A DNA stretch of 64,000 nt from Truepera sp. Its GTDB lineage: Bacteria; Deinococcota; Deinococci; Deinococcales; Trueperaceae. Shown in pieces: positions 7,680-58,709 of this stretch. Each line of letters starts with the position of its first letter. Within the stretch, counting starts at the first letter, position 1. The notes beneath the pieces are model-generated. The model was not told the DNA's origin and did not search any database. It saw only the letters and a list, made by a program, of their open reading frames with translations. The stretch lies in NCBI GenBank assembly GCA_018333895.1, contig JAGXSJ010000137.1, positions 1 to 64,000 on the forward strand. The letters are read 5' to 3'. Both the position numbers and the translations under genes were made by a program.

Positions 7680-9010
7680 TGCGTGTCCTGGTGTTTACTC
7701 TGCTGCTGTCGCTAGGCGTAGGTATGGCGCAGCAGCGGCTAGTAGTCAACGGGGTAGAGGTACCCGGACTTACCACCACGCTGGTAGCCGGTAGCTCCTA
7801 CGCTGCCGCCGAACCGCTGGCTCGAGCCCTGGGCGCTAGCTTCAGCTTCGACCCGATTAACCAGCTAGCCCTGTTTCAGTTAGCCGGGCGGGTGGTGCTG
7901 CTAAGCGTTTTTAGCGATGCCCGCAGCGCTGCGGCCGCCACTGAGGCTATCCTCATCGATGGGCGCCGGCTCGCTAGCTCGGGCGGGATTCTAATTGAAG
8001 GGGTCGTCTTTGCCCCGGTACGGTCGCTGGCCGTGGCTTTTGGCGGGAGCGCCGCTGTGGTGCAAGAGCAAAACGCCGTCACGGTGGTGCTGCCGCGAGC
8101 CAGGCTGGAGCGCGCCGAGTTAGGCCCAGCGCCCGGCGGCCGCTACGAGCGCTTTGTGTTTGAGTTCAGCGGGCTGCCTCCGATCGACACGCGCGAGCTG
8201 CCCGCGCTGAATACCGTGCAGTTCCGCTTCGACCGCAGCGACCTAATCGCCGAGCGGCGTTTCAGTGGCCGCTACTTCGTCGAGGCGGTGCTAGTTCCTA
8301 ACGCTGGGCGCATCGACTTCCGCCTCACTCTGACGCCCGATAGCCGCTATGAGTGGTTCCTGACGCCAACTCCACAGGGCGTCAGCATCGTGATCGATAT
8401 CTTCAGCGCTACGATGGCTGCTGCTCCGGTAACTACCGACCGCCCTCGGCTCAGCGTCGTGCTAGACCCAGGGCCAGGTACCCTGATGCTGGCCCAGCAG
8501 TTGGCAGCCAGTCTGGAAACCGATGGTTATCCGGTACGCCTGACCCGCGACAGCGAGGTGGAGGTTCCGCTGGAGGCGCGCGCTAGTGCCGGCATTGGGG
8601 CTGGGGTGTTCATCTCATTACAGGCAAGCACCTTGCCACCCGGCCAGTATCGGGCCTATTATCTGGCAGAGGCGGCTGACTTAGAGGTGCTTAACGCGGC
8701 CATCCGCCAAAATGCCGAAGCCGCTGCGCGCAGCGAAGCTACCGATAGCCTGCGCCGCCGCCTCCTACTCGGCCTGGCCCCGGATCTAAGCGCCGGGCCA
8801 CAGCTCGCCCAAGTGATGACTGCCGCACTGAGTCAGGCTGGCAACTTCGCACCGCTAACGGTCGAAGGCGCTCCCCTCTTAATTCTCACCGGCGCCGCCG
8901 GGCGCGGGGTGGTGCTCGAGCTGAGCAGCAGCGATCTAGCTAACGCGGCGGTGCGCCAACGCCTGGTTGATGGGCTAAGCCAGGCGTTAGAGCAGTTTGC
9001 TGCAAGGTAA
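7676..9010 (+). CDS. N-acetylmuramoyl-L-alanine amidase-like protein with copper-amine-oxidase-like N-terminal and AMIN domains
   Basis: Signal peptide, stalk domain (VNGVEVPGLTTTLVAGSSYAAAEPLARALG), AMIN region (YERFVFEFSGLP), Amidase_3-like C-terminus (VVLDPGPGT, VRLTRDSEVEVPLEARAS). Starts within the last codons of smpB. Confidence 0.75.
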   Translation: MMRVLVFTLLLSLGVGMAQQRLVVNGVEVPGLTTTLVAGSSYAAAEPLARALGASFSFDPINQLALFQLAGRVVLLSVFSDARSAAAATEAILIDGRRLASSGGILIEGVVFAPVRSLAVAFGGSAAVVQEQNAVTVVLPRARLERAELGPAPGGRYERFVFEFSGLPPIDTRELPALNTVQFRFDRSDLIAERRFSGRYFVEAVLVPNAGRIDFRLTLTPDSRYEWFLTPTPQGVSIVIDIFSATMAAAPVTTDRPRLSVVLDPGPGTLMLAQQLAASLETDGYPVRLTRDSEVEVPLEARASAGIGAGVFISLQASTLPPGQYRAYYLAEAADLEVLNAAIRQNAEAAARSEATDSLRRRLLLGLAPDLSAGPQLAQVMTAALSQAGNFAPLTVEGAPLLILTGAAGRGVVLELSSSDLANAAVRQRLVDGLSQALEQFAAR

Positions 9011-9771: not shown

Positions 9772-10224
9772 ATGGCCGGACAGACCTTTACCCCCACCCG
9801 TTCCCCAGCTATGCCGCTGGGCGTGCGCATCTTGCACCTTGAGGCAGAGAACGACCTGCGGGTGGCCCAATACATCAACGAGGGGCTGTTGCCTTCGGTG
9901 CTAGAGCACCTCGCCGAGCACTTAAGGATGAGTGTGAGCGACCTGCTCGCCTTAGCCGGCATCAAGAGCAGCACCTACTTCGAGCGCAAGCGCCGGCGTC
10001 GGCCACTCTCTCCCGAGGAGTCTAGCCGCGTGTATCGCCTCGCCAAGGTGGTCGAGGCCACCGAAGCCTACTTCGAAGGCGATCGGGAGGCCGCCAGGCG
10101 CTGGCTATTAAATAAGAAGATGGCTCTAGGCGGCGAGGCTCCGCTCGAGTTTGCCCGCACGCCCGAAGGCAGCGACTACCTGATCAGGCTGCTCGGCCGC
10201 ATGGCGCACGGTATCCCCTCCTGA
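9772..10224 (+). CDS. Xre/MbcA/ParS-type (DUF2384) antitoxin
   Basis: LSVSDLLALAGIKSSTYFERKRRRRPLSPEESSRVYRLAKV followed by KKMALGGEAPLEFARTPEGSDYLIRLLGRMAHG, typical of RES-cognate antitoxins. Confidence 0.85.
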   Translation: MAGQTFTPTRSPAMPLGVRILHLEAENDLRVAQYINEGLLPSVLEHLAEHLRMSVSDLLALAGIKSSTYFERKRRRRPLSPEESSRVYRLAKVVEATEAYFEGDREAARRWLLNKKMALGGEAPLEFARTPEGSDYLIRLLGRMAHGIPS

Positions 10225-10709
10225 GCCTCACTGCCTACCGCATCAGCAAGGCCACCTACCAGACCACCAGCATGACGGGCATGGGGGCTTTTCTGCACGG
10301 GGCTCGCTGGAACGCGCCTGGGCAGTATGTGGTCTACGCTAGCGGCAACCTGAGCTTAGCCATGCTTGAAGTGTTGGTACACCTAGATGACGCTGAAGCG
10401 CTTTGGGCCGTGCCACACGTCTACCACTCCCTGCGCTGGCCAGAAAGGATCATCGCCACACTTGACCGCAGCGCCCTACCCAAAGGGTGGAACGACCGCC
10501 CCGAGACTTTAGTCAGCCAAGCGGTTGGCAATGAGTGGCTGGAACGTCAAGCGAGCGCTGTACTGGCAGTGCCGAGCGTGGTCACCCCGCCTGAGCTACG
10601 CTTCCAGCCGCTCTATATGAACTACCCAATCAACCCTCGGCACCCAGATTTTGCTGCAGTAGCGGTGGGCCAGGTTTACGGGCTCGAGTGGGACACGCGC
10701 TTGCGCTAG
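10221..10709 (+). CDS. RES-domain toxin (start moved upstream to CTG)
   Basis: ORF track starts at ATG 10272, but the in-frame upstream codons LSLTAYRISKATYQTTSM restore the YRIS N-terminus; GARWNAPGQYVVYAS and LEVLVHLD motifs follow. Confidence 0.8.
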   Translation: MSLTAYRISKATYQTTSMTGMGAFLHGARWNAPGQYVVYASGNLSLAMLEVLVHLDDAEALWAVPHVYHSLRWPERIIATLDRSALPKGWNDRPETLVSQAVGNEWLERQASAVLAVPSVVTPPELRFQPLYMNYPINPRHPDFAAVAVGQVYGLEWDTRLR

Positions 10710-10762
10710 CTCATTACCCCTGTTCCTCACAGCGGTTTTCACAAATACTGAGTCGCCTTAGC

Positions 10763-10864
10763 GCAGGTATCATCTCTGCAAAGGCGTCCTGCGAGTAAAC
10801 CGCAGGATAGAGAACGATTCGCAGTCCTGCGAGCACCCGCAGGATCAAACCAGATGATACCTGC
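10763..10864. repeat. MITE-like element copy M1
   Basis: Perfect 13-bp terminal inverted repeat GCAGGTATCATCT (10763-10775) / AGATGATACCTGC (10852-10864). Homology with copy M2 extends leftward to about 10730 (CAGCGGTTTTCACAAATA). Contains two nested short palindromes. Confidence 0.85.
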
Positions 10865-10866
10865 TA

Positions 10867-11331
10867 TCAGTCGGTAGTCTCAACTACCGTGGTGCCGCCC
10901 AGGCGGTCGCCCCAGCGCCGTCCCTCTTTGTCGGTAGCCACCAGGATGATCTCAATCAGAGCAATAACCGGTGCAGCGACCCACAAGAGCGCCAGCGCGA
11001 TCCAGCCGATAACCGGAATTAGCACCAGGACTAGGCTGATAAGGCCCAGCGCCAACATCCAGTTGCGTTTAATGGAGGTAGTTATATCCATCGGCTGACC
11101 ATCCAGGCGGATCGGCTTGAGCTTCATCAGCGTCTTGCCGACCGAGCGGCCCCGCAGGTACTCGTAGTCGAGGCCGTCGCGCAGGAGGATATAGAGGCCG
11201 CCGATGATGCCACCGACCCAGGGGATGAGACCAACCACCCCGGCAATAGCACCGTCGATGATGGCGGCAATGAAGCGCTTGCCCAGATCGGCCTTGGCTG
11301 TCTGGGCCACGGGCTGGGGAGAGGGTTCCAT
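10867..11331 (-). CDS. RDD-family membrane protein
   Basis: LGKRFIAAIIDGAIAG ... GRSVGKTLMKLKPIRLDGQPM with TM segments. Confidence 0.85.
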   Translation of the reverse strand: MEPSPQPVAQTAKADLGKRFIAAIIDGAIAGVVGLIPWVGGIIGGLYILLRDGLDYEYLRGRSVGKTLMKLKPIRLDGQPMDITTSIKRNWMLALGLISLVLVLIPVIGWIALALLWVAAPVIALIEIILVATDKEGRRWGDRLGGTTVVETTD

Positions 11332-11375: not shown

Positions 11376-12716
11376 TTACGGATACATCCGCGTCAACATG
11401 CGCGGGAAGGGGATGACTTCGCGCAGGTGGGTCACGCCGGTCAGCCAGGCCAGGGTGCGCTCGAGCCCCAAGCCGAAGCCCGAGTGGGGGACGCTGCCGT
11501 ACTTGCGCAGGTCGAGGTACCAGGCGAACGCCTCCTCGGGCAGCTGGTGTTCGACTAAGCGCTGTTTTAAGAACGCATAGTCGTGGATACGCTGGCTCCC
11601 GCCGATGATCTCGCCAAAGCCCTCGGGGGCGATCACGTCGGCGCACTTTACGCGAGAGGGGTCGTGGTCATAGGGCTGCATATAGAACGCCTTGGTCTTA
11701 GCCGGCCAGGAGTGGATAAAGAGAGGCCGATCAAAGGCGTTGCCGAGGATGGTCTCGTGTGGTGCGCCAAAGTCGTCGCCCCAGCTTAGCGGCTCGCCGT
11801 GCTCGGCCAGGAGCGCTAGGGCCTCGTCGTAGCTAAGCCGCGGATAGTTACCCTGGGCGCTGGGCAGGAGCTTACTAACCTCGCGCCCCAGGAGCGCCAG
11901 CTCCTGCGCGCGCTTATCTAGCACGCGGCTCACCAGGTAGACTAGCAGCTCCTCTTGTAGCTGCATACTCTCTTCGTGCTCCAGGTAAGCGACCTCCGGC
12001 TCGATCATCCAGAACTCCAGCAGGTGCTTGCGGGTCTTGGACTTCTCGGCGCGGAAGGTCGGGCCAAAGGTGTAGACCTTGCCATAAGCCAGCGCCCCAG
12101 CTTCGGCATAAAGCTGGCCGGACTGCGACAGGTAGGCGGTGTCCTCGCCAAACAGATCGATCTCGAAGAGGTTAGTGGTCCCTTCCACCGCGGTGGGCAT
12201 AAACAGCGGCGCATCGAAGCGCAAAAAGCCGCGCTCGGCAAAGAAATCGTGAATGGCCCGCTCGAGCTCATCGCGGATGCGCATAATCGCCCACGGCCCA
12301 CGGTGGCGCAGATAGAGGTGGCGGCGCTCCATGAGAAAGTCCACCCCGTGCTCTTTGGGAGTAATCGGGTACTCGTCCTGCGCCGCATCCTGCGGCGCAA
12401 GCGCGCAGGACGCAGGATGCGGCGGGGCGACAACCCTGACCCCAGTTACCGCCAACTCGACCCCGGAGGGCGAGCGCTCATCGGCACGGACCGTGCCTGT
12501 TACCACCACACTGGTCTCTTGCGTCAGCGACCGTGCGGTAGCAAAGACCGCTTCAGCTACCTCGCTCTTGACCACCACCCCCTGAACGAAGCCGGTGCCG
12601 TCGCGCAGTTGCAAGAAGGCGATCTTGCCGCTGCTGCGCGAGCCGGTCAGCCAGCCCTTAAGCTCTACCGTTTCGCCGATATGCCTGGATAACGCTTCGA
12701 TATAGACGTGTGGCAT
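11376..12716 (-). CDS. asnS: Asparaginyl-tRNA synthetase, carrying an in-frame palindromic insertion
   Basis: OB-fold, [58 protein letters not shown]. Start set at [10 protein letters not shown] (12716). Confidence 0.95.
12376..12424. repeat. Nested palindromic repeat inside asnS
   Basis: 14-bp inverted repeat CGCCGCATCCTGCG (12381-12394) / CGCAGGATGCGGCG (12411-12424) around an inner TCCTGCG...CGCAGGA hairpin; encodes [19 protein letters not shown]. Confidence 0.9.
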
Positions 12717-12732
12717 AAGAGAGTCTATCAAG

Positions 12733-13533
12733 CTACCGCCGCAGGGCCAGCTCGAAGGCTTCTGCCGCGCCGCACGCCTCGACATCGCCCACCACGGTCG
12801 GGTAGCGCGTCAGCAGCTCAGGCTCACTGTTAGCCATCACCACCGGATGACCGACTCGCTCGAGCATGGGCAGGTCGCCGCGGCTATCACCGACCGCCAT
12901 GATGTTAGCTAGGTCGATCTTGAGGTGCTTGGCCAAGTGCTCCACTGCCGTCCCCTTAGAGACTCCCGCTTGCGTGATGCTGATAAAGTAGGTGTCCTTT
13001 AGTACCGGCGAGCTGGCGCGGCTGATCTGCATGTTGTTAAGCTTAAGCGCTTCTACGATGCTAAGTTGAGCGGAGGTTACCACCCACTGCGCACGCACTA
13101 TCGGCTCACTGGCTAAGACGCTTTTGAGGTCGCGCACCACGGCGCTCATAGCGATCATCTGGGCGTGCGCTTCGCTTAAGGGGGTCTTGCGCTCGACGAA
13201 CATCTCACCAGGAGTGTAGAGCTCGAGCACCAGATTGCGCTCGCGCGAGAAGGCGATGACCTGCTCGGTTACCGCCCCAGGCAAGGCATGAACCGAAAGC
13301 GGCCGACCGTCAGGGTAGCTAATTACCGCTCCGCTATGGAAGATATGGGGGTTGTTCGGCCCTAAGCGCTGTGCCACCTTCTGAGCGCCACCGCCACAGG
13401 GACGGCCGGTGCAGACCGCCGCCTTGACACCCGCCGCCTTAGCCTTTTCAACCGCCTGCCAGACACACTCCCGGACCAAGCCGCTGCTGCCGATCATGGT
13501 GCCGTCTAGATCCACGATAACGAGTGGAATCAT
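12733..13533 (-). CDS. HAD-superfamily hydrolase (Cof-like)
   Basis: [43 protein letters not shown]. Confidence 0.88.
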
Positions 13534-17039: not shown

Positions 17040-17095
17040 TCCTGCAAATATCTGCAGTCCTGCAAGTATCTGCAGTCCTGCAAGTATCTGCAGGA
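17040..17095. repeat. Tandem array of three TCCTGCAARTATCTGCAG palindromes
   Basis: 18-bp period units starting at 17040, 17058 and 17076, ending TGCAGGA. Confidence 0.92.
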
Positions 17096-18154
17096 TTACC
17101 ACTCATCCACTACCGCCTTCAGCGCGCGGTCATCGGCCTTGGCATAGTTGCGGGCCATATCCAGGGTGGCATGTCCCAGGTGATCGGCCACCTTGGTTAT
17201 GTCGCCGGTCTGGCGCTGCAACAGGGTGCCGGCAGCATGGCGCAGGGCGTGGAGCCCTTGAAACCTAACGCCAGCGGCGCGGCAGGTGCGGGCTAGCCGT
17301 TCGCGGGCGCTGAGGCGCGAGCGGAAGGGGAGAACCCACCCATCCTGCAACTTGTGTGCAGGACCACCCACCCCCAGGTCCTGCCCCTGCGAGTGAACCG
17401 CAGGGGCACACGCAGGATGGGGGGGACGGACTAGCTGACCAAGTGCCTCGGAAAGCGTCTTAGACAGGTTAACGGTGCGCTTTTTGTCACCTTTACCGTG
17501 CAGGACGACGAGTTTACGGTTTACTAGATCAACCTCCGACCAGCGCAGCGCTAACATCTCGCTGATCCGTAGACCAGCGTGCGCCCCCAACAGGATCAAA
17601 GCGCGGGTGACGGGGTCGGCTACCGCCAGCAGGCGCGTAACTTCAAGCTGGCTGTAAGCGCCCTGGCGCTCCCACGGGGCGGTTTTGTCCTTGGCAGCTT
17701 TAGCGTCAGCAAACGGTTCGGCTTCAGTAGCGCCGGCCCAGCGCAGCGCCTTGTAAAGGGCCTTACCGGCGGCGATCTTGACACGCACCGTGGCGGGCTT
17801 GCGGCCGCGGCACTCCATGGTGCGGAGCCAGACCGCGGCGGCGTCGCGACCAGGGCGTAATAGGTTTTCTCCCTGCCAAGCAGCCAGCAGATCCTTAACC
17901 CCACGGCGATAGGCCTTATAGGTGTTGACCGATACCAGCGCGCCCGACTCGCCGTGCAACGTTAGGTGCGCTTCAGTTAGCTGCCATAAGGTTTCAAAGT
18001 CGCGCTCGTTGGCAGCTCTAACGGCCAAGCGGCGGAGGTCGGCGGTGCTGAGGCTAGCAAGAAAGCGGGCGCGGCCTACCTGGTCCCCTGCAGATACTTG
18101 CAGGGCTGCAGATACTTGCAGGCTGGCAATGGCTAATTCTAATGGGTCTGCCAT
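17096..18154 (-). CDS. Tyrosine recombinase/integrase with two in-frame palindromic insertions
   Basis: Catalytic set visible: AGLRISE (R), GKGDKKR (K), HALRHAAGT (HxxR), LGHA (H), ARNYAK (Y). Start placed at MADPLELAIA (ATG 18154). Confidence 0.9.
   Translation of the reverse strand: MADPLELAIASLQVSAALQVSAGDQVGRARFLASLSTADLRRLAVRAANERDFETLWQLTEAHLTLHGESGALVSVNTYKAYRRGVKDLLAAWQGENLLRPGRDAAAVWLRTMECRGRKPATVRVKIAAGKALYKALRWAGATEAEPFADAKAAKDKTAPWERQGAYSQLEVTRLLAVADPVTRALILLGAHAGLRISEMLALRWSEVDLVNRKLVVLHGKGDKKRTVNLSKTLSEALGQLVRPPHPACAPAVHSQGQDLGVGGPAHKLQDGWVLPFRSRLSARERLARTCRAAGVRFQGLHALRHAAGTLLQRQTGDITKVADHLGHATLDMARNYAKADDRALKAVVDEW
17339..17421. repeat. Compound nested palindrome inside recombinase gene
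   Basis: Outer 10-bp inverted repeat CCCATCCTGC/GCAGGATGGG around two hairpins (17343-17363 and 17379-17417). Confidence 0.88.
18086..18123. repeat. Two-unit tandem palindrome near the 5' end of the recombinase gene
   Basis: CTGCAGATACTTGCAGGG / CTGCAGATACTTGCAGGC, 18-bp period; encodes SLQVSAALQVSAG. Confidence 0.88.
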
Positions 18155-18156
18155 CA

Positions 18157-18184
18157 CCCTACGATAACACGTCTTATCGTAGGG
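18157..18184. promoter_or_regulatory. 11-bp inverted repeat abutting the recombinase start codon
   Basis: CCCTACGATAA (18157-18167) / TTATCGTAGGG (18174-18184), two bases from the ATG (18152-18154, minus strand). Confidence 0.6.
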
Positions 18185-18218
18185 TAGACGCTGTCCTGAG
18201 CAACGCGAAGGAGGCGCA

Positions 18219-18293
18219 TCCTGCGGCGCAAGCGCGCAGGACCGCAACCCGGTCAACGCTCGGCCTGCAATCCTGCGAGCAGTCGCAGGATTG
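18219..18293. repeat. Two intergenic palindromes
   Basis: TCCTGCGGCGCAAGCGCGCAGGA (18219-18241) and CAATCCTGCGAGCAGTCGCAGGATTG (18268-18293). Confidence 0.88.
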
Positions 18294-18481
18294 CCGCCGC
18301 AGGATCAGCGCTGGTCGCCGATATGCCGTCCCTAACAGCTTTTCTGCAACGACGCGCTATAATGCGTTTTAAGGGGCCTCCGGCACGAATTAAGGGGTAA
18401 GGGTGCGGGGGCAGTGGCGGGTAGAAACTCTTGTTGGGCTATCTTAAGGTGCCGTTAAGGAACGATGGCTAATGTACGGCC

Positions 18482-18948: not shown

Positions 18949-20328
18949 CTACGGCATGTCTGCAAATGCCGCCAGCAGCGCCGTGCTCACCTCGATGCCG
19001 CGATAGTAGTTAACAAGGTCGAACTTCTCGTTGGGCGAGTGAACCTTATCTGACTCCAAACCCAAACCGACCATCACCACCTGGGCACCGAGCAGCTCTT
19101 GAAAGGTGCTGACCACCGGGATGGTGCCACCGGTGCGGGCAAACACTGCCGGGCGACCGAACACGGTAGCTAGGGCTCGAGCTGCCACCTGCACCGCCGG
19201 CGCCTCGAGCGGTCCTGCGGCGCAAGCGCGCAGGACCGCCGGTAGCGCGCCGTGCAGCTCGGTGACGGTGACTTCGACCCCTGGCGGAGCTAGGCGCTTA
19301 AGGTGCGCGGCGAGTTTGGCCGTAATATCGTGCGGGTCTTGGTTCGGCACCAGGCGGCAGGAGATCTTTGCCCGCGCCTCAGCCGCGATGACGGTCTTGG
19401 CCCCGTCCCCTTGAAAGCCGCCGCCGATGCCGTTGCAGTCTAGCGTCGGGCGCGCCCACAGGCGCTCGAGCAACGAATAACCGGCCTCGCCAGGAGTGGC
19501 TGCCAGCCCGGCTTCGCGTTTGAAGTGCGCCTCGTCAAACGGAACCTGGCGGAAGGCTTCGCGCTCGGTATCGGTAAGCTCGAGCACAGCGTCATAAAAA
19601 CCCGGCACCGTGACGCGCCCCTGCTCGTTATGCAGCTGCGCAATGATCTTGGCCAGCGCGTTAATAGCGTTGGGTGCGCCGCCGCCATAAGCTCCGGAGT
19701 GCAGGTCGCGCCCGGCGCCGCGCACTAGCACTTCGACATAGGCCAGACCTCTAAGGCCGTAGGTGATAGTGGGAGTATCTGGAGCCACCATCGCCCCATC
19801 CGAGATAAGTACGATATCGGCAGCCAACTGCTCGCGGTGAGCCTCGATCAAGGGGGTGAGGTTAGGGCTGCCGATCTCCTCTTCCCCTTCGATCAAAAAG
19901 GTAAGGTTGACCGGCAGTGTGCCGGTAGTAGCTAAGAGCGCCTCGACCCCCTTGATATGCGCGTAGAGCTGCCCCTTGTCATCCGACGCACCCCGCGCCA
20001 CAATCAAGCCGTTCTCGACCACCGGCTCGAAGGGCGGCGAGATCCACAAGTCGAGCGGCTCTGGCGGCTGCACATCGTAGTGGCCGTAGATGAGTACGGT
20101 CGGAGCGCTATCGGAGACGCGATAGTGGGCCACCACCACCGGATGGCGCGGTGTCTCGAACAGTTGCACCTCAAACCTCAGCTCGGCCAGCTTGCCGACT
20201 ACGAACTCAGCGGCGCGGCGCACCTCGCCTTGTCGGGTCGGGTCGGTGCTGACCGAAGGGATCCGCAAAAGATCGAGCAGTTCGCTAAGGTGGCGCTGCT
20301 GGTTGGCTGTTAGATAGTCCTTAAGCAT
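18949..20328 (-). CDS. M20-family dipeptidase
   Basis: LLRIPSVSTDP, VLIYGHYDVQPPEPLDLW, ASDDKGQLYAHIKG, IEGEEEIGSPNL, LHSGAYGGGAPNAINAL. Confidence 0.93.
   Translation of the reverse strand: MLKDYLTANQQRHLSELLDLLRIPSVSTDPTRQGEVRRAAEFVVGKLAELRFEVQLFETPRHPVVVAHYRVSDSAPTVLIYGHYDVQPPEPLDLWISPPFEPVVENGLIVARGASDDKGQLYAHIKGVEALLATTGTLPVNLTFLIEGEEEIGSPNLTPLIEAHREQLAADIVLISDGAMVAPDTPTITYGLRGLAYVEVLVRGAGRDLHSGAYGGGAPNAINALAKIIAQLHNEQGRVTVPGFYDAVLELTDTEREAFRQVPFDEAHFKREAGLAATPGEAGYSLLERLWARPTLDCNGIGGGFQGDGAKTVIAAEARAKISCRLVPNQDPHDITAKLAAHLKRLAPPGVEVTVTELHGALPAVLRACAAGPLEAPAVQVAARALATVFGRPAVFARTGGTIPVVSTFQELLGAQVVMVGLGLESDKVHSPNEKFDLVNYYRGIEVSTALLAAFADMP
19209..19239. repeat. Palindrome inside the M20 dipeptidase gene
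   Basis: GCGGTCCTGCG...CGCAGGACCGC, 11-bp stem; encodes [10 protein letters not shown]. Confidence 0.9.
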
Positions 20329-34062: not shown

Positions 34063-34146
34063 GCAGGTATCATCTCTGCAAAGGCGCCCTGGAGAACGAT
34101 TCGCAGTCCTGCAAGCACCTGCAGGATCAAACCAGATGATACCTGC
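34063..34146. repeat. MITE-like element copy M2
   Basis: GCAGGTATCATCT (34063-34075) / AGATGATACCTGC (34134-34146); homology with M1 starts at about 34030, inside the aldolase 3' end. Confidence 0.87.
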
Positions 34147-38085: not shown

Positions 38086-40269
38086 GTGAATATTCCGGTA
38101 GGTAAACAGTACAGCACCATGCTAGGCGGTCGCGAGCTGGTCATTGAGACCGGCAAGTACGCCAAGCAGGTCTCAGGCTCGGTAACGGTGCGCTATGGCG
38201 ACACGATGGTGCTGGTTACCGCCCAGCTGTCAGACGAGGTTAGCCCTGGCGATTTCTTGCCGCTGACAGTAGAGTACGAAGAGCGGCACTACGCCATCGG
38301 CAAGATCCCCGGTTCGTTCATGCGCCGTGAAGGGCGCCCCGGCACCCAAGCGACGCTGAACGGCCGCTTAACCGATCGACAGATTAGACCCTTGTTCCCC
38401 AAAGGGCTCCGTAACGAGATTCAGGTCATCATCACCGTGCTTAGCGCCGACCGGCAGCACGACCCGGCCACCTTAGGGGCGATTGGCGCCTCCGCTGCGC
38501 TGAGCCTAAGCGACATCCCCTGGGATGGACCGACTGCTTGTTTAACAATGGGCTATCGCGACGGCCACTATCTCGTCAACCCGACCCTGACCGAGCTTGA
38601 GACCTCGCAGCTCGAGCTAGTTATTGCCGCCAGCAAGGACGCGGTATTGATGGTCGAGGCCGGTGCCGATGAGCTGCCCGAAGAGATAATGGTGGGCGCC
38701 ATCGAGCTAGCGCACCGCGAGCTGCAGCCGGTCATCGCCTTAATCGAGCAGTTGCGCGCCGAGCTAGGTCAGCCCAAAGCACCTGTTAAACCGCCGGTGG
38801 GGCTGCCTGACGACCAGGTAGAGCGCGTCTACCAGGAGGCTCGAGCTGCCGGGCTTTACGAGGTGCTGCTGACCCCCGGCAAGCACGAGCGGAGTGCAGC
38901 GCAAAAGGCGTTGCGCGAGGCTATCATTGCGCGGCACGTCCTCGACCCTGAGGCCGAGGGGGCCGCTGAGCACATCAATCAGCTCAAAGAAGCTTTCGCC
39001 AAAGCCGTTCAGCGCGAATCGCGGCGCATGGTGCTAGAAAACGGCATCCGCTCGGATGGGCGCCGCCCTGAGCAGATCCGCAACATCTGGATCGAAACCG
39101 GCCTCTTGCCTACCGCCCACGGCTCGGCAGTCTTTACCCGCGGCGAGACTCAGGTGTTAGGCGTGACCACGCTGGGCACCCGCAAAGACAACCGCCTGGT
39201 GGATGACCTTGGCCTCGAAGAGACCGAGGAGTTCATGCTGCACTACAACTTCCCGCCTTACTCGACCGGCGAGGTCAAGCGGCTGCGCGGAGTAGGGCGG
39301 CGCGAGCTGGGCCACGGCAACCTGGCACGTCGGGCGCTGCTGCCTTTACTTCCCGACTTCGAGAGCTTCCCTTACGTCATCCGGGTAGTCGGTGAAACGC
39401 TCGAGAGCAACGGCTCGAGCTCCATGGCTACAGTCTGCGCCGGCTGCTTGAGCCTGATGGACGCCGGCGTGCCGATCAAGAAGCCGGTAGCGGGGATCGC
39501 TATGGGCCTCATCAAGGAAGGTGAGCGCTACCAGATCCTCTCCGACATACTAGGCTCTGAAGACGCCCTGGGTGACATGGACTTCAAGGTGACGGGCACC
39601 CGCGACGGCGTTACCGCGCTACAGATGGACATCAAGATCAAGGGGATCACCCCGGCCATCATGAAGGAGGCGCTGGAGCAAGCGCGGGCAGGTCGGCTAC
39701 ACATTCTGCAGGTGATGGCCGAAGCCTTGCCGGAGCCGCGCGCCGAGCTGTCCAAGAACGCCCCGCGCATCCTCACCGTGCGCATCCCGGTGGACAAGAT
39801 CGGCACCATCATCGGCCCCGGCGGCAAGCAGATCCGCGAGCTTGAAGCGCTCGGCGCACAGATCGACATCGCCGAAGACGGCTTGGTCAGTATCTACAGC
39901 GCCGATGCGGCTGCCGCCGAGCAGGTGCGCTCCGCTATCGAGGGGATGACCAGCAGCGCCGAAGTCGGCATGATCTACGAAGGTACGGTAGCTAAGATCG
40001 TGGACTTTGGCGCTTTTATTACCCTGTTCCCTGGCACCGACGGGCTGCTGCATATCTCGCAGATTGCCCAGGGGCGCGTTAACCGCGTCGAAGACCACCT
40101 CAAGGTCGGTGACAAGATCAAGGTTAAGGTCAACAAAGTTGACGAGCGCGGCAAGCTCGATTTAATCCGGCCTGAGCTCGAGGGGATCGTGCCACCTCGT
40201 AAGCCGCCCGCGCCACGCGGTGATCCTGCGGGTACTCGCAGGACGGAGGAGCGCGGCGGGCGACGTTGA
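38086..40269 (+). CDS. pnp: Polyribonucleotide nucleotidyltransferase (GTG start)
   Basis: Two RNase PH domains, KH ([21 protein letters not shown]), S1 ([29 protein letters not shown]). Confidence 0.97.
40224..40243. repeat. Palindrome inside the pnp 3' end
   Basis: TCCTGCG-GGTACT-CGCAGGA encoding DPAGTRRT. Confidence 0.92.
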
Positions 40270-43864: not shown

Positions 43865-44578
43865 TCACGGTGCCTCCTCGCCTTCGGGCAGCGCTGCCGG
43901 CGGTGCGTCCTGCGGCTTGCGCGCAGGATGCGGTGGGCGCGCTAGCGTGGCCGGTGGCGTCTCCGCCGGTGCGCCGAAGATATAAGCGGCTTGCAAAAGC
44001 GCTAGGTCGGAGCGGTCTACTACTCCGTCGCGGTTGATGTCCGCCGGGAGGTTCACCCCGCTGCGCCCAAAGCTCTGCGCCAATAGCCACAGGTCGTAAA
44101 AATCCACCACCCCGTCGCGGTTGATATCTTCCGGAACCACCTCTCGCTGCGCCCGCAGGGCGTTTAAGTCATCGGCGGTCGGCGCGCTGGGCGTATCGTG
44201 GGTAAAGCGCGGGTTCATGATTCCCCCCTCGCTCGGCGATAGCCCTAGCAAGACACCGACCTCGTGCAGCAGCGCGCGCTCTTTGAAGGGACTCGCCGGA
44301 TTGAGGCGGACTTCCAGCGTGCGCCGTCCGGCCTCGGTCCGCGCTACGGTCAGCGAGTGGGTGTCAGGCCCGAAGGCAGCGGCGCTGCCGTAGCCGATCA
44401 AAGTATCGGCCTCTTCGGCTAGCCTCGCCGTTACCTCTACCCCTTCCGCGCCTCTCCAGGCAGCGAAGGCAGCGGCCACCCGTTCCTCTAAGTCGAGCGG
44501 GCCGCCGCGGGGGTCGACGCGATAGGTAAGCGCTAGAGCACTACTAACCAGCAGGAGGATGACCGGCCAGTATCTCAT
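43865..44578 (-). CDS. Secreted matrixin-like protein with two dockerin-type repeats; zinc motif degenerate
   Basis: Signal peptide; LLHEVGVLLGLSPSEGGIMNP; DINRDGVVDFYDLWLLAQSFG and DINRDGVVDRSDLALLQAAY. Confidence 0.8.
   Translation of the reverse strand: MRYWPVILLLVSSALALTYRVDPRGGPLDLEERVAAAFAAWRGAEGVEVTARLAEEADTLIGYGSAAAFGPDTHSLTVARTEAGRRTLEVRLNPASPFKERALLHEVGVLLGLSPSEGGIMNPRFTHDTPSAPTADDLNALRAQREVVPEDINRDGVVDFYDLWLLAQSFGRSGVNLPADINRDGVVDRSDLALLQAAYIFGAPAETPPATLARPPHPARKPQDAPPAALPEGEEAP
43908..43928. repeat. Palindrome inside the dockerin-protein gene 3' end
   Basis: TCCTGCG-GCTTGCG-CGCAGGA encoding PPHPARKPQDA. Confidence 0.88.
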
Positions 44579-45968: not shown

Positions 45969-48900
45969 ATGCCGGAGTACACGCTACTAACCGACCCCCT
46001 TAATCCGAATCAGGCGCTGGAGCGCGAGTTTCACATGAATCGAGCCGCCAGGCAGCGCTATCAGGTTAAGAGCGCCCTCTTTGGCACCCACGGCAACGTG
46101 ATCTTTGCTGACTACAGCGCCGCGCAAGAGCTAGCCCATAGCATCAACACCGCCCGCCTTCCGGAGACCGCAGTTAGCGCTGGTGATCTGGCGGCGCTGG
46201 GCCTGCTGGACGAGCTCTATCACCTGCTCATAGACGCCTACCGCGAAGAGGTAAACCCCGAAGTGCTGGCTAAAGCCTACCGCCACATTGAGCAGGCGCT
46301 CGGCGAGCAGGCGCAAAAGACCCTGCATCAGTTCGCCGCGCAGTTCCCGGCGGCAGCGGTCTACCGGGGTGAACAGGTGTTAGATAACTACCTGGCTGGC
46401 CAGACCGCGGGCGTACCCCATCGCCAGATTGTGCTAGAAGAGCTCTTGATGCTCTGGCTCGATAATGAGAATCCGGCCTGCGAGCGCTACCGCGAACTGT
46501 TCGACGACAGCTCGCTGCGCGAAGTGACGGCGTATTCGCAGATTATTACGGAGCTTAAACGCTTCTTCGATCAGGAGCCGGGCTTTGGCCCCGATGGCGC
46601 CTCGCTCTTTGCGCTGCTGCGCGCCCCAGCCCTTCATAGCCCCACCTCGTTGGCGGGCCAGCTAGAGTATATCCGCGCCTACTGGACACCCATCTTAGGG
46701 GCGCGCTTCGAGCGCTTCACGGTGCGCTTGCTGCTATCGCTCGACATTTTCAAAGAGGAGGCGAAGTGGGGCTTGGTCGGCGGCGAACCCGAAACGGTGG
46801 TGCTAGACGAAGCCGCTTTGCGCGGACCGGCGCGCCGTGGCCCGGTCGAGTACGAACGTTTCAGCCCCGACCAGTCGTGGATGCCGCGCCTGGTGATGAT
46901 CGCTAAAAGTACCTATGTCTGGCTTGACCAGCTCTCCAAGCAGTACCAGCGCCCCCTTCACCGGCTCGATCAGATCCCCGACCAGGAGCTCGATCGCCTA
47001 GCCGAGTTCGGCTTTAGCGGCCTGTGGCTGATCGGCCTGTGGGAGCGGAGCCCTGCCTCGGCGCGGATCAAGCACCTAATGGGCAATCCCGACGCGGTCG
47101 CCTCAGCCTATTCGCTCTACGACTACACCATCGCCCACGACCTGGGCGGCGAGAGTGCCTATCAGAACCTGCGCGACCGCGCTTGGCAGCGCGGCATCCG
47201 CCTGGCCTCGGACATGGTGCCAAACCATATGGGGATCGATTCGCGCTGGGTTATTGAGCACCCCGACTGGTTCTTGTCGCTGTCGCACCCGCCCTACCCC
47301 GGCTACACCTATAGCGGTCCGGATCTCTCGAGCGACCCCCGCGTCGGCATCTTTATCGAAGATCACTACTACCACCAGAGCGATGCGGCGGTGGTCTTTA
47401 AGCGCGTGGATCGCTGGACTGACGAGGCCAGGTACATCTACCACGGCAACGACGGCACCAGCATGCCCTGGAACGACACCGCCCAGCTCAACTACCTCCA
47501 GGCGGAGGTGCGCGAGGCGGTAATCCAGACCATCTTAGCGGTAGCCCGCCGGTTCCCGATCATCCGTTTCGATGCGGCTATGACGCTGGCCAAGCAGCAC
47601 GTCCAGCGGCTCTGGTTCCCCGAGCCGGGGCAGGGCGGGGCCATCCCCTCACGCGCTCAGTACGGCAGTATGTCCCATGAGACGTTCGAGGCGCTGATGC
47701 CTAACGAGTTCTGGCGCGAGGTGGTCGACCGCGTAGCAACTGAGGTGCCCGATACGCTGCTGTTAGCTGAGGCGTTCTGGATGCTGGAGGGCTACTTCGT
47801 CCGGACGCTGGGGATGCACCGGGTCTACAACAGCGCCTTTATGAACATGCTGAAGCGCGAGGAGAACCAGAAGTACCGCCAAACTATCAAGAACATCATC
47901 GAGTTCGAGCCGGAGATAATCAAGCGCTTTGTCAACTTCATGAACAACCCCGACGAGGAGACGGCGGTAGCGCAGTTCGGCCAGGACGGCAAGTACTTCG
48001 GTGTGTGCGTGATGATGGTCACGCTACCTGGACTGCCCATGTTCGGCCACGGCCAGCTTGAGGGCTATCACGAGAAGTACGGCATGGAGTACCGTCGCGC
48101 CAAGTGGGACGAGGAGCCCAATCAGTGGTTAATCGAACGACACCGGCGCGAGATTGTGCCGCTACTGAAGCGCCGCAGCCAGTTTGCCGAGGTCGAGAAC
48201 TTCTTGCTATACGACTTCTATCAGGACGGCTATGTCAACGAAAACGTCTTTGCCTACACCAATCGGCACCAGGGCCAGGCCTCGCTGGTGGTCTACAACA
48301 ATAAGTACGAGGCGGCGCAGGGCTGGCTCCGGCAGTCGCTGCCATACAAAGCTGAATTGTCGGGCGATCCTGCGGATACTCGCAGGACGGGGCGGAGTCA
48401 GACCAAGCTGCTGGCCGAGGGGCTAGGGCTAAGTTGGGGCCAGGAGCGCTTTTGCACCATGCGCGAGCACCCGTCCGGCCTGGAGTACCTGCGGCGTAAC
48501 CGCGAGCTGTTCGAGCAGGGGCTCTACCTAGAGCTTGGCGCCTTCGGCTATCAGGTCTACTGGGAGGTGCGCGAGGTCGTCGATGTCAATGGGCTCTATG
48601 CCCAGCTCCACCGCGAGCTAGGCGGGCGCGGCGTGCCGAGCATCGAGATGGCCTTGTCGGACCTTAAGCTGCGGCCACTGCATGAAGCCTGGGCCGGGCT
48701 GTTTGCAGTTTCGCTGCTGCAAGGGCTAGCCGAGGGCGATACCGGCGTGCTGGCGCCGCTAGAGGAGGCGCTGGCCTGGTTTTGGCACCAGGCGGCGGCT
48801 TACGGCTTTATGGGTGACGCCGAGGTGCTGACGGAGAAATGGGAGCGCATCGCCAATATGCTCGAGCGCTTGGCCGGTGAGGAATGGTCGGGCGATCCTG

Positions 48901-49532
48901 CGGATACTCGCAGGACGACGCTACAGCCCTATCTGACGCTCGAGCCCAGCGGCTGTGCGGTGCTTCTAGCCGGGGAACTACTCTCCCAACTCGAAGACGT
49001 CACACCGGGCTTGGTCGAGAGGGGGCGCTTAGTGCAGGCGCTCTGCCGCGCGTTGGAACGGCTTGGCATGTCGGCTGAGGAGGCGGCGCGCCGCGCCGAG
49101 TTACCCACTGCGGTCCGGCGCCATGAGCTTAAGCCTTTGCTGGAAGACCCCTCTGCCGAGGCCGTAGCAGCCTTCTGGCAGCGGTTCCTGGACGACCCCA
49201 TAGCGGCTAAACTGTTGCTAGTCAACGAGCACCAGGGGGTTCGCTGGTTTAACCGCGAGGCCTACCGCGAGCTAGTCGCCGCGCTAGTGCAGACAGCGGC
49301 TCTGGCCGGGGCGGAGAGCGGGGGGCTGCGCACTCTGGCACAGCGGTTTAGGGAGGTCGAGGGGCGCTCGAGCTATCAGCTTAACAAGCTCATCAGCGGC
49401 CAGACGTCCTACGGCGATCCTGCGAGTATCCGCAGGACGCAGGATCAGCGTGCGGAGGATACGCTGCAAAGCTCTCGCGATAAACCGCCAGTCAGCGATG
49501 AGGTTGAGGAAAAAGTGGAGAGAGAGGAGTAG
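45969..49532 (+). CDS. Large GH13 alpha-amylase-family glycoside hydrolase with three in-frame palindromes
   Basis: GLWLIGLWERS, LASDMVPNHMGID, IIRFDAAMTLAKQH, LLLAEAFWMLEGYF. Confidence 0.85.
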   Translation: MPEYTLLTDPLNPNQALEREFHMNRAARQRYQVKSALFGTHGNVIFADYSAAQELAHSINTARLPETAVSAGDLAALGLLDELYHLLIDAYREEVNPEVLAKAYRHIEQALGEQAQKTLHQFAAQFPAAAVYRGEQVLDNYLAGQTAGVPHRQIVLEELLMLWLDNENPACERYRELFDDSSLREVTAYSQIITELKRFFDQEPGFGPDGASLFALLRAPALHSPTSLAGQLEYIRAYWTPILGARFERFTVRLLLSLDIFKEEAKWGLVGGEPETVVLDEAALRGPARRGPVEYERFSPDQSWMPRLVMIAKSTYVWLDQLSKQYQRPLHRLDQIPDQELDRLAEFGFSGLWLIGLWERSPASARIKHLMGNPDAVASAYSLYDYTIAHDLGGESAYQNLRDRAWQRGIRLASDMVPNHMGIDSRWVIEHPDWFLSLSHPPYPGYTYSGPDLSSDPRVGIFIEDHYYHQSDAAVVFKRVDRWTDEARYIYHGNDGTSMPWNDTAQLNYLQAEVREAVIQTILAVARRFPIIRFDAAMTLAKQHVQRLWFPEPGQGGAIPSRAQYGSMSHETFEALMPNEFWREVVDRVATEVPDTLLLAEAFWMLEGYFVRTLGMHRVYNSAFMNMLKREENQKYRQTIKNIIEFEPEIIKRFVNFMNNPDEETAVAQFGQDGKYFGVCVMMVTLPGLPMFGHGQLEGYHEKYGMEYRRAKWDEEPNQWLIERHRREIVPLLKRRSQFAEVENFLLYDFYQDGYVNENVFAYTNRHQGQASLVVYNNKYEAAQGWLRQSLPYKAELSGDPADTRRTGRSQTKLLAEGLGLSWGQERFCTMREHPSGLEYLRRNRELFEQGLYLELGAFGYQVYWEVREVVDVNGLYAQLHRELGGRGVPSIEMALSDLKLRPLHEAWAGLFAVSLLQGLAEGDTGVLAPLEEALAWFWHQAAAYGFMGDAEVLTEKWERIANMLERLAGEEWSGDPADTRRTTLQPYLTLEPSGCAVLLAGELLSQLEDVTPGLVERGRLVQALCRALERLGMSAEEAARRAELPTAVRRHELKPLLEDPSAEAVAAFWQRFLDDPIAAKLLLVNEHQGVRWFNREAYRELVAALVQTAALAGAESGGLRTLAQRFREVEGRSSYQLNKLISGQTSYGDPASIRRTQDQRAEDTLQSSRDKPPVSDEVEEKVEREE
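48368..48387. repeat. Palindrome in GH13 gene, copy 1
   Basis: TCCTGCG-GATACT-CGCAGGA, encodes GDPADTRRT. Confidence 0.93.
48896..48915. repeat. Palindrome in GH13 gene, copy 2
   Basis: TCCTGCG-GATACT-CGCAGGA, encodes GDPADTRRT. Confidence 0.93.
49418..49437. repeat. Palindrome in GH13 gene, copy 3 (opposite loop orientation)
   Basis: TCCTGCG-AGTATC-CGCAGGA, encodes GDPASIRRT. Confidence 0.93.
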
Positions 49533-49577: not shown

Positions 49578-49597
49578 TCCTGCGGATACTCGCAGGA
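49578..49597. repeat. Intergenic palindrome between the GH13 gene and ruvC
   Basis: TCCTGCG-GATACT-CGCAGGA. Confidence 0.92.
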
Positions 49598-58439: not shown

Positions 58440-58709
58440 ATGACCTACCCAGCTTTTGAGGCCCGTGATCTGATCGGCGCCGTGCTGCTAAAGGACGCTG
58501 CACTGCTGAAAGACTGGCGAGCCGCCTCGCAACGCGGCGACGTTCTGGCCGTCACGGTGCAAGGGATCGTGGTCAAGGACGCTGCCCTGGTCGAAGCGAT
58601 TAAGCGCGCTGCGCTGCATCCTGCGCACATCCTGCAACTCGTGTGCAGGACGCAGGATACGGCCTACCGTTGCGACCCCGCCACCGCCACCGTGTCGGAG
58701 CCGTCGTGA
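58440..58709 (+). CDS. Small hypothetical protein with repeat-derived C-terminus
   Basis: MTYPAFEARDLIGAVLLKDAALLKDW...; C-terminal HPAHILQLVCRTQDTAY is encoded by a palindrome; stop overlaps the next start (GTGA). Confidence 0.5.
   Translation: MTYPAFEARDLIGAVLLKDAALLKDWRAASQRGDVLAVTVQGIVVKDAALVEAIKRAALHPAHILQLVCRTQDTAYRCDPATATVSEPS
58619..58657. repeat. Nested palindrome in the 58440 ORF
   Basis: Outer TCCTGCG/CGCAGGA (58619-58625, 58651-58657) around inner TCCTGCA-ACTCGTG-TGCAGGA (58630-58650). Confidence 0.9.

Follow-up and report, generated by a model that had tools for sequence, protein, structure and literature searches.

Cyanobacterial small dispersed repeats of the SDR5 type measure approximately 20-27 nt and insert precisely into other repeats and into genes, and no transposase is known for them. 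REPs, which are 20-40 bp long and tagged by GTAG or CGTC, are in many cases intragenic, tRNA synthetase genes included, and some lie within longer palindromes; those of the GTAG type are often found close to RAYT genes (PMC3733652). The Rickettsia elements RPE-4 and RPE-6 belong to the CGTC type, and CGTC elements have no associated transposase (PMC3733652). Deinococcus radiodurans carries SNRs, mosaic short repeats that have been described as noncoding (PMC1978522).

The subject of this work is an 83-bp segment of a 64-kb window (the whole stretch of DNA that was analyzed) from a Trueperaceae genome. The segment is very probably a stack of at least three lineage-specific, very short mobile palindromes of the REP/RPE-like kind, which have entered a surface loop of an Xer-like tyrosine recombinase without breaking its reading frame; this judgement covers the identity of the elements and their insertion, the mobilizing enzyme being weighed separately. 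The family to which they belong is unrelated in sequence to the SDR5 type, and unlike the latter, which targets RNA genes and tandem heptamers, it targets ORFs and its own elements. With REPs (GTAG and CGTC superfamilies) and BIMEs it shares high-copy stem-loops, some intragenic and some within longer palindromes, but it has no constant GTAG or CGTC tag and is associated with a RAYT at only one of the two RAYT genes examined. In placement it resembles RPE-1, RPE-4 and RPE-6 of Rickettsia, which are also short palindromes in frame in many unrelated ORFs that are probably still functional (PMC3733652); the proteins hosting the present family are likewise likely to be readable, judging from their open frames and from the catalytic residues kept in the recombinase. 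Unlike the RPEs, the family has another sequence and another host, lacks the CGTC tag of RPE-4 and RPE-6, displays a net step of 18 nt, and has copies that nest in the loops of their own kind. SNRs come from the same phylum, and the family stands at background level in all 110 other genomes of the class that were searched, D. radiodurans not being identified among them.

The source genome is a MAG of 2.84 Mb in 178 contigs, with approximately 8% estimated contamination, of which a sample of 1.07 Mb (about two fifths) was read directly and the remainder was covered by pattern search alone. Assembly as a MAG could affect repeats and contig ends, but nested copies recur at many loci.

The compound palindrome

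The segment and its host gene comprise the following features:

17096-18154, minus strand: Xer-like tyrosine recombinase, 352 aa from the ATG at 18154
17339-17421, minus strand: compound palindromic insert in the recombinase linker, at least three units of 18-nt step
17339-17348 and 17412-17421: outer arms, CCCATCCTGC and GCAGGATGGG
17343-17363, minus strand: E-type unit TCCTGCAACTTGTGTGCAGGA (plus-strand letters)
17379-17417, minus strand: hairpin TCCTGC...GCACACGCAGGA, opened by the inner unit
17382-17408, minus strand: inner A-like unit TGCCCCTGCGAGTGAACCGCAGGGGCA, 10-bp stem

The earlier note had described an 83-bp compound palindrome with an outer inverted repeat and two inner hairpins, and its coordinates, arms, hairpins and encoded peptide were all confirmed. 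As single-stranded DNA, the 91 nt from 17335 to 17425 fold at -32.1 kcal/mol versus a shuffle mean of -18.0 (z -5.4; minus strand, z -5.6), and none of 200 shuffles folds as well as the real sequence. The inner core TGCGAGTGAACCGCA, said to match the copy at 10787-10807, does so closely (14 of 15 bases) and not exactly, since one loop base differs (AGTGAAC versus AGTAAAC).

Removal of one 18-nt unit from the inner hairpin leaves a 21-nt hairpin of family size, and removal of three such units, the inner one and the ACTTGTG hairpin among them, reduces the linker from the observed 35 aa to 17 aa. The outer inverted repeat is largely automatic, because every member of the family has TCCTGC/GCAGGA arms and two members are adjacent here; the fold adds a GTGTG/CACAC pairing inside the outer arms, so that the past unity of the outer pair as one element is ambiguous. 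The compound palindrome holds at least three family units; since TCCTGC/GCAGGA is common to all arms, it can also be parsed as a single element, bounded by the outer arms, with two more inside. With the closest relatives of the recombinase only about 50% identical to it, neither the precise limits of the units nor their number (three or four) is certain.

A hairpin family limited to one genome

The family consensus is (R)TCCTGCG-loop-CGCAGGA(Y), 20-23 nt in length, with no constant tag. The pattern TCCTGC-N4-30-GCAGGA has 20 matches in the window versus 0.21 expected, and the TCCTGC/GCAGGA pattern has 222 matches in the source genome, while its reversed control has none. In its strict form, TCCTGCG-N4-9-CGCAGGA, the hairpin occurs 174 times in the source genome versus 0-2 times in each of 110 other genomes of the same class (controls, 0-3), and a looser pattern yields 185 matches versus 0-11 in the relatives, whose controls reach 0-21. 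The family is dispersed, present in high copy number and limited to the source genome among the genomes searched, and its 174-222 copies, with stems of at least 7 bp, are short dispersed stem-loops like REPs in general. In the 1.07-Mb sample the loops fall into types B AGCACC (35 copies), A AGTAAAC (26), E ACTTGTG (10), F AGTACC (9), G AGTATC (7), D CGCTTGCGC (4) and the TGCA-armed C (3).

The arms vary in pairs (CTGCG..CGCAG versus CTGCA..TGCAG). Copies were chosen on stem positions 1-6, which biases pairing there; position 7, outside this selection, pairs in 71% of 72 distinct copies, with several pair types, versus 22-31% just beyond the stem. The flanks of 57 distinct sites read R-T before CC and A-Y after GG, and carry neither a GTAG tag nor a clear target consensus. 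Nor was a CGTC tag found: some copies read CGTCCTGC, but among distinct sites position -3 is A in 47% and G in 44%, and position -4 is mixed. In viral contigs, neither of the two most frequent core types has an exact copy, which leaves spread of the family by phage unsupported.

The own-genome sample, for example at L038 16516 and L048 8140-8195, also holds other high-copy short repeats: ACAAGGCTTCGCCCGACAATTC (29 copies), TGACCCGAGCGAAGCGAGAGTGAT (17 copies), arrays of the heptamer-like TACTTGAATACT and a CRISPR-like repeat, GTTTCAAAATGCTTAGCCCCGAAAGGGGATTGCAAC (13 copies).

Copies elsewhere in the window include:

34107-34126: B-type unit with paired arm changes (CTGCA...TGCAG)
40224-40243, plus strand: F-type unit in the C-terminal tail of PNPase (38086-40269)
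43908-43928, minus strand: family hairpin in the C-terminal part of the ORF at 43865-44578
48368-48387, plus strand: G-type unit, in frame within a gene of the alpha-amylase family (45969-49532), encoding SGDPADTRRT
48896-48915, plus strand: second G-type unit in the same gene (45969-49532), peptide SGDPADTRRT
49418-49437, plus strand: third unit in the same gene (45969-49532), peptide GDPASIRRT
49578-49597: intergenic G-type unit

Strongly conserved stems with paired changes, together with the intergenic position of some copies, are also what one would see if the hairpins were kept by selection for a host function, as terminators, mRNA stabilizers or protein-binding sites, and their placement in genes were incidental. 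This explanation is quite improbable: about half of the copies are located within conserved ORFs, among them genes for tRNA synthetase and peptidase (a figure for the 64-kb window, where genes were called), copies are nested in one another, and the family is missing from all other genomes of the class that were searched.

Insertion events and nesting

The insertions can be followed at sites that exist in both empty and filled form, at proteins whose relatives lack the extra residues, and at copies opened by other copies:

10732-10871, plus strand: filled copy of R115, a dispersed repeat of about 115 bp, with A-type (10787-10807) and B-type (10825-10844) units
12376-12417, minus strand: nest of units in the gene for asparaginyl-tRNA synthetase (11376-12785), its frame kept
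19209-19239, minus strand: D-type unit within a gene for an M20 peptidase (18949-20328), which keeps its frame and gains 6 aa net
58619-58657: E-type hairpin nested within an TCCTGCGCACA...CGCAGGA hairpin

R115 is present in 17 filled and 18 empty paralogous copies that differ by exactly 18 nt; empty sites read, for example, GCGCCCTGG or ACGTCCTAG, and a filled site GCGTCCTGCGAGTAAACCGCAGGATAG. An Xre/MbcA-type antitoxin and RES-domain toxin pair (9772-10709) lies immediately upstream of the R115 copy of the window. The 18-nt repeat ATTGTCGGGCGAAGCCTT exists with and without the ACTTGTG hairpin, the difference, from GGGCGAAGCCTT to GGGCGACCCTGCGACTTGTGCGCAGGGCTT, being +18 nt with one or two junction substitutions. 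The M20 peptidase has six residues at 19209-19239 beyond all of its 19 relatives, which are constant in length there. The net insertion step is thus 18 nt in the three measurable cases (R115, the 18-nt repeat and the M20 peptidase), and part of the outer arms of each hairpin must therefore derive from the target. The glycosidase sites were left out of this measurement because relatives are too variable there. That the difference represents gain and not loss is supported by relatives in the protein cases, and is presumed for the repeats, R115 included.

In the asparaginyl-tRNA synthetase (AsnRS) the nest adds 13-14 aa that are lacking in 19 of 19 relatives, which is not a clean multiple of 6 aa. 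As with RPEs, then, copies lie in frame in unrelated ORFs and are absent from homologues, the recombinase, AsnRS and M20 peptidase having been compared with 19-25 relatives each. At 12376-12417 and at 58619-58657 one hairpin has been split open by a second, and L041, L049, L074 and L096 hold comparable nests; copies occupy other repeats and the loops of fellow copies. The suggestion that elements insert into one another is supported by these nests and by the paralogous empty and filled sites. A separate locus, L113 16354-16573, consists of a repeat of approximately 100 bp in three tandem copies, each with the same AGTATC hairpin between GAGTGAA and TCGAAGGGCTC; here a different common repeat has apparently received the hairpins.

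C-type units stand in tandem with a period of 18, and two such arrays flank or enter the recombinase gene:

17040-17095: three tandem C-type units, period 18, directly past the recombinase stop
18086-18123, minus strand: pair of C-type units in tandem at period 18, close to the N-terminus of the recombinase, encoding LQVSAALQVSAG

These arrays resemble local duplication, and with outer arms that are partly local sequence they could speak for a palindrome that arose on the spot, perhaps through fold-back template switching while the recombinase gene was being replicated, with no mobile family involved. Such an origin is very improbable, since the same cores and loops are found at dozens of unrelated loci and the units of the recombinase are members, or close likenesses, of the A, C, D and E types that are dispersed in the genome. 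General 18-bp tandem duplication was considered as well and set aside, period 18 being just mildly enriched (6 arrays, several of which are the elements themselves). Identical cores at unrelated loci, paralogous empty sites and absence from relatives show that the elements have spread, and approximately 200 copies of a palindrome of about 20 nt appear to have done so only within their own Trueperaceae lineage.

A candidate mobilizing enzyme

Each copy may move in single-stranded form, folded into a hairpin, with the replication fork as the most likely place, and copies whose loop or arms make a suitable target would take up further copies, giving rise to nests. A step of 18 nt is divisible by three, so that proteins struck in a flexible linker would stay readable and the insertions could escape purging.

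The likeliest enzyme is a RAYT-type HUH/Y1 transposase of the same genome, a candidate whose chances are at best about even. The RAYT gene at L048 7042-7740, on contig C37, has its best match in NF047646 (REP-associated tyrosine transposase) at E 3.5e-14, below the curated NCBIfam cut-off, and five family hairpins of several types lie within approximately 250 bp upstream of its start, with none close downstream, forming the second-densest cluster of the 1.07-Mb sample. A second RAYT gene, on contig C16, has no family hairpins adjacent, and the link between RAYT and hairpins is for this reason only suggestive. As regards a possible descent of the family from an IS200/IS605 element in miniature form, an IS200-type TnpA is encoded at C110:370-726, where the sole nearby family hairpin is part of an R115 copy. 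The middle of the L048 gene contains a nearly six-copy 18-bp tandem repeat, CATCAGGGCGACCACCGG, and its hairpin region spans 7808-8061; RAYT relatives from two other genera of the order (L217 2467-2563 and L219 1764-1812) carry the same two palindromes, GGGGCAACCCTTGTGGTTGCCCC and GGGCAGGCACAAGGCCTGCCC, within the coding region.

The densest hairpin cluster of the sample is the recombinase locus itself, 17040-18294, with 8 strict hairpins in 1.3 kb versus approximately 0.14 expected; within this locus, two members lie upstream of the gene:

18219-18241: D-type unit upstream of the probable recombinase start
18267-18294: family hairpin with a 12-bp stem, upstream of the recombinase

This density would fit a tyrosine recombinase that itself acts on the hairpins, as integron integrases act on folded attC, its gene having been hit as the source. 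Such a role is scarcely probable: the recombinase is also present in relatives that lack the hairpin family (in G001, G003 and G014 it shares a contig with AspRS/AsnRS), insertions of 18 nt with no pre-existing site are unlike the strand exchange of tyrosine recombinases, and the second-densest cluster adjoins a RAYT gene. The dense cluster is read instead as accumulation in a tolerant gene, with the RAYT as the candidate enzyme.

The host recombinase

The recombinase matches Pfam PF00589 (1.1e-20) and PF02899 (1.6e-6; N-terminal SAM-like domain), and an upstream TTG at 18256, if used as the start, would give a protein of 386 aa. It is called only 'Xer-like' because its scores lie well under the curated cut-offs for its closest NCBIfam models, XerC (81.3 bits versus 335) and XerD (67.8 versus 329.6). 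Relatives were found by an alignment-based scan of genome contigs, a single-protein scan having given none, and those named come, with few exceptions, from MAGs of Trueperaceae or other Deinococcota.

None of the catalytic residues (R, K, HxxR, H and Y) is missing in alignments A1 and A2, and they are in frame, as had been proposed, and the insert was correctly placed between the catalytic Lys and HxxR with the frame kept: the Lys-HxxR linker measures 35 aa, versus 11-22 aa (median 16) in 25 relatives (alignment A2), where it is variable in length but shorter. An uninterrupted homologue with an equally long loop of unrelated sequence would have counted against insertion, and none was seen among these 25 relatives or in another set of 29; gene decay, raised as a further objection, has left no sign in an ORF that is open and matches both Pfam domains. 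Although the relatives' linker does vary over 11-22 aa, a naturally long, low-complexity Pro/Gly loop of the lineage is hardly credible as an explanation, given that 35 aa lies beyond that range and that the extra DNA consists of family hairpins with a fold z of about -5.5.

In the predicted structure (mean pLDDT 77.8, pTM only 0.47), insert residues 244-270 have pLDDT below 50 and lie between helices 232-241 and 280-294, so that the insert probably sits in a variable, disordered surface loop. It is probably tolerated because of its placement in a variable loop, and is predicted to be probably neutral for the recombinase. A second intact tyrosine recombinase is encoded on contig C16, and the host recombinase could therefore be dispensable.

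Implications

The present family stands apart by its net step of 18 nt, by copies that nest in others of their kind, and by its presence in a single genome among those of the class that were searched. For the questions of how REP/RPE-like palindromes move and whether their insertions into proteins matter, the source genome offers empty and filled paralogous sites, nests that record the order of insertion, and a RAYT beside a dense cluster, so that net length, target and enzyme are directly testable. It is conceivable, though doubtful, that the net length of the mobile unit is always 18 nt, however long its hairpin, because frame-neutral units survive in coding sequence; if so, it would be a selfish element tuned to genes, using its own copies as landing sites, and among the smallest described. 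The locus extends in-frame palindromic insertion to the Trueperaceae (Deinococcota).
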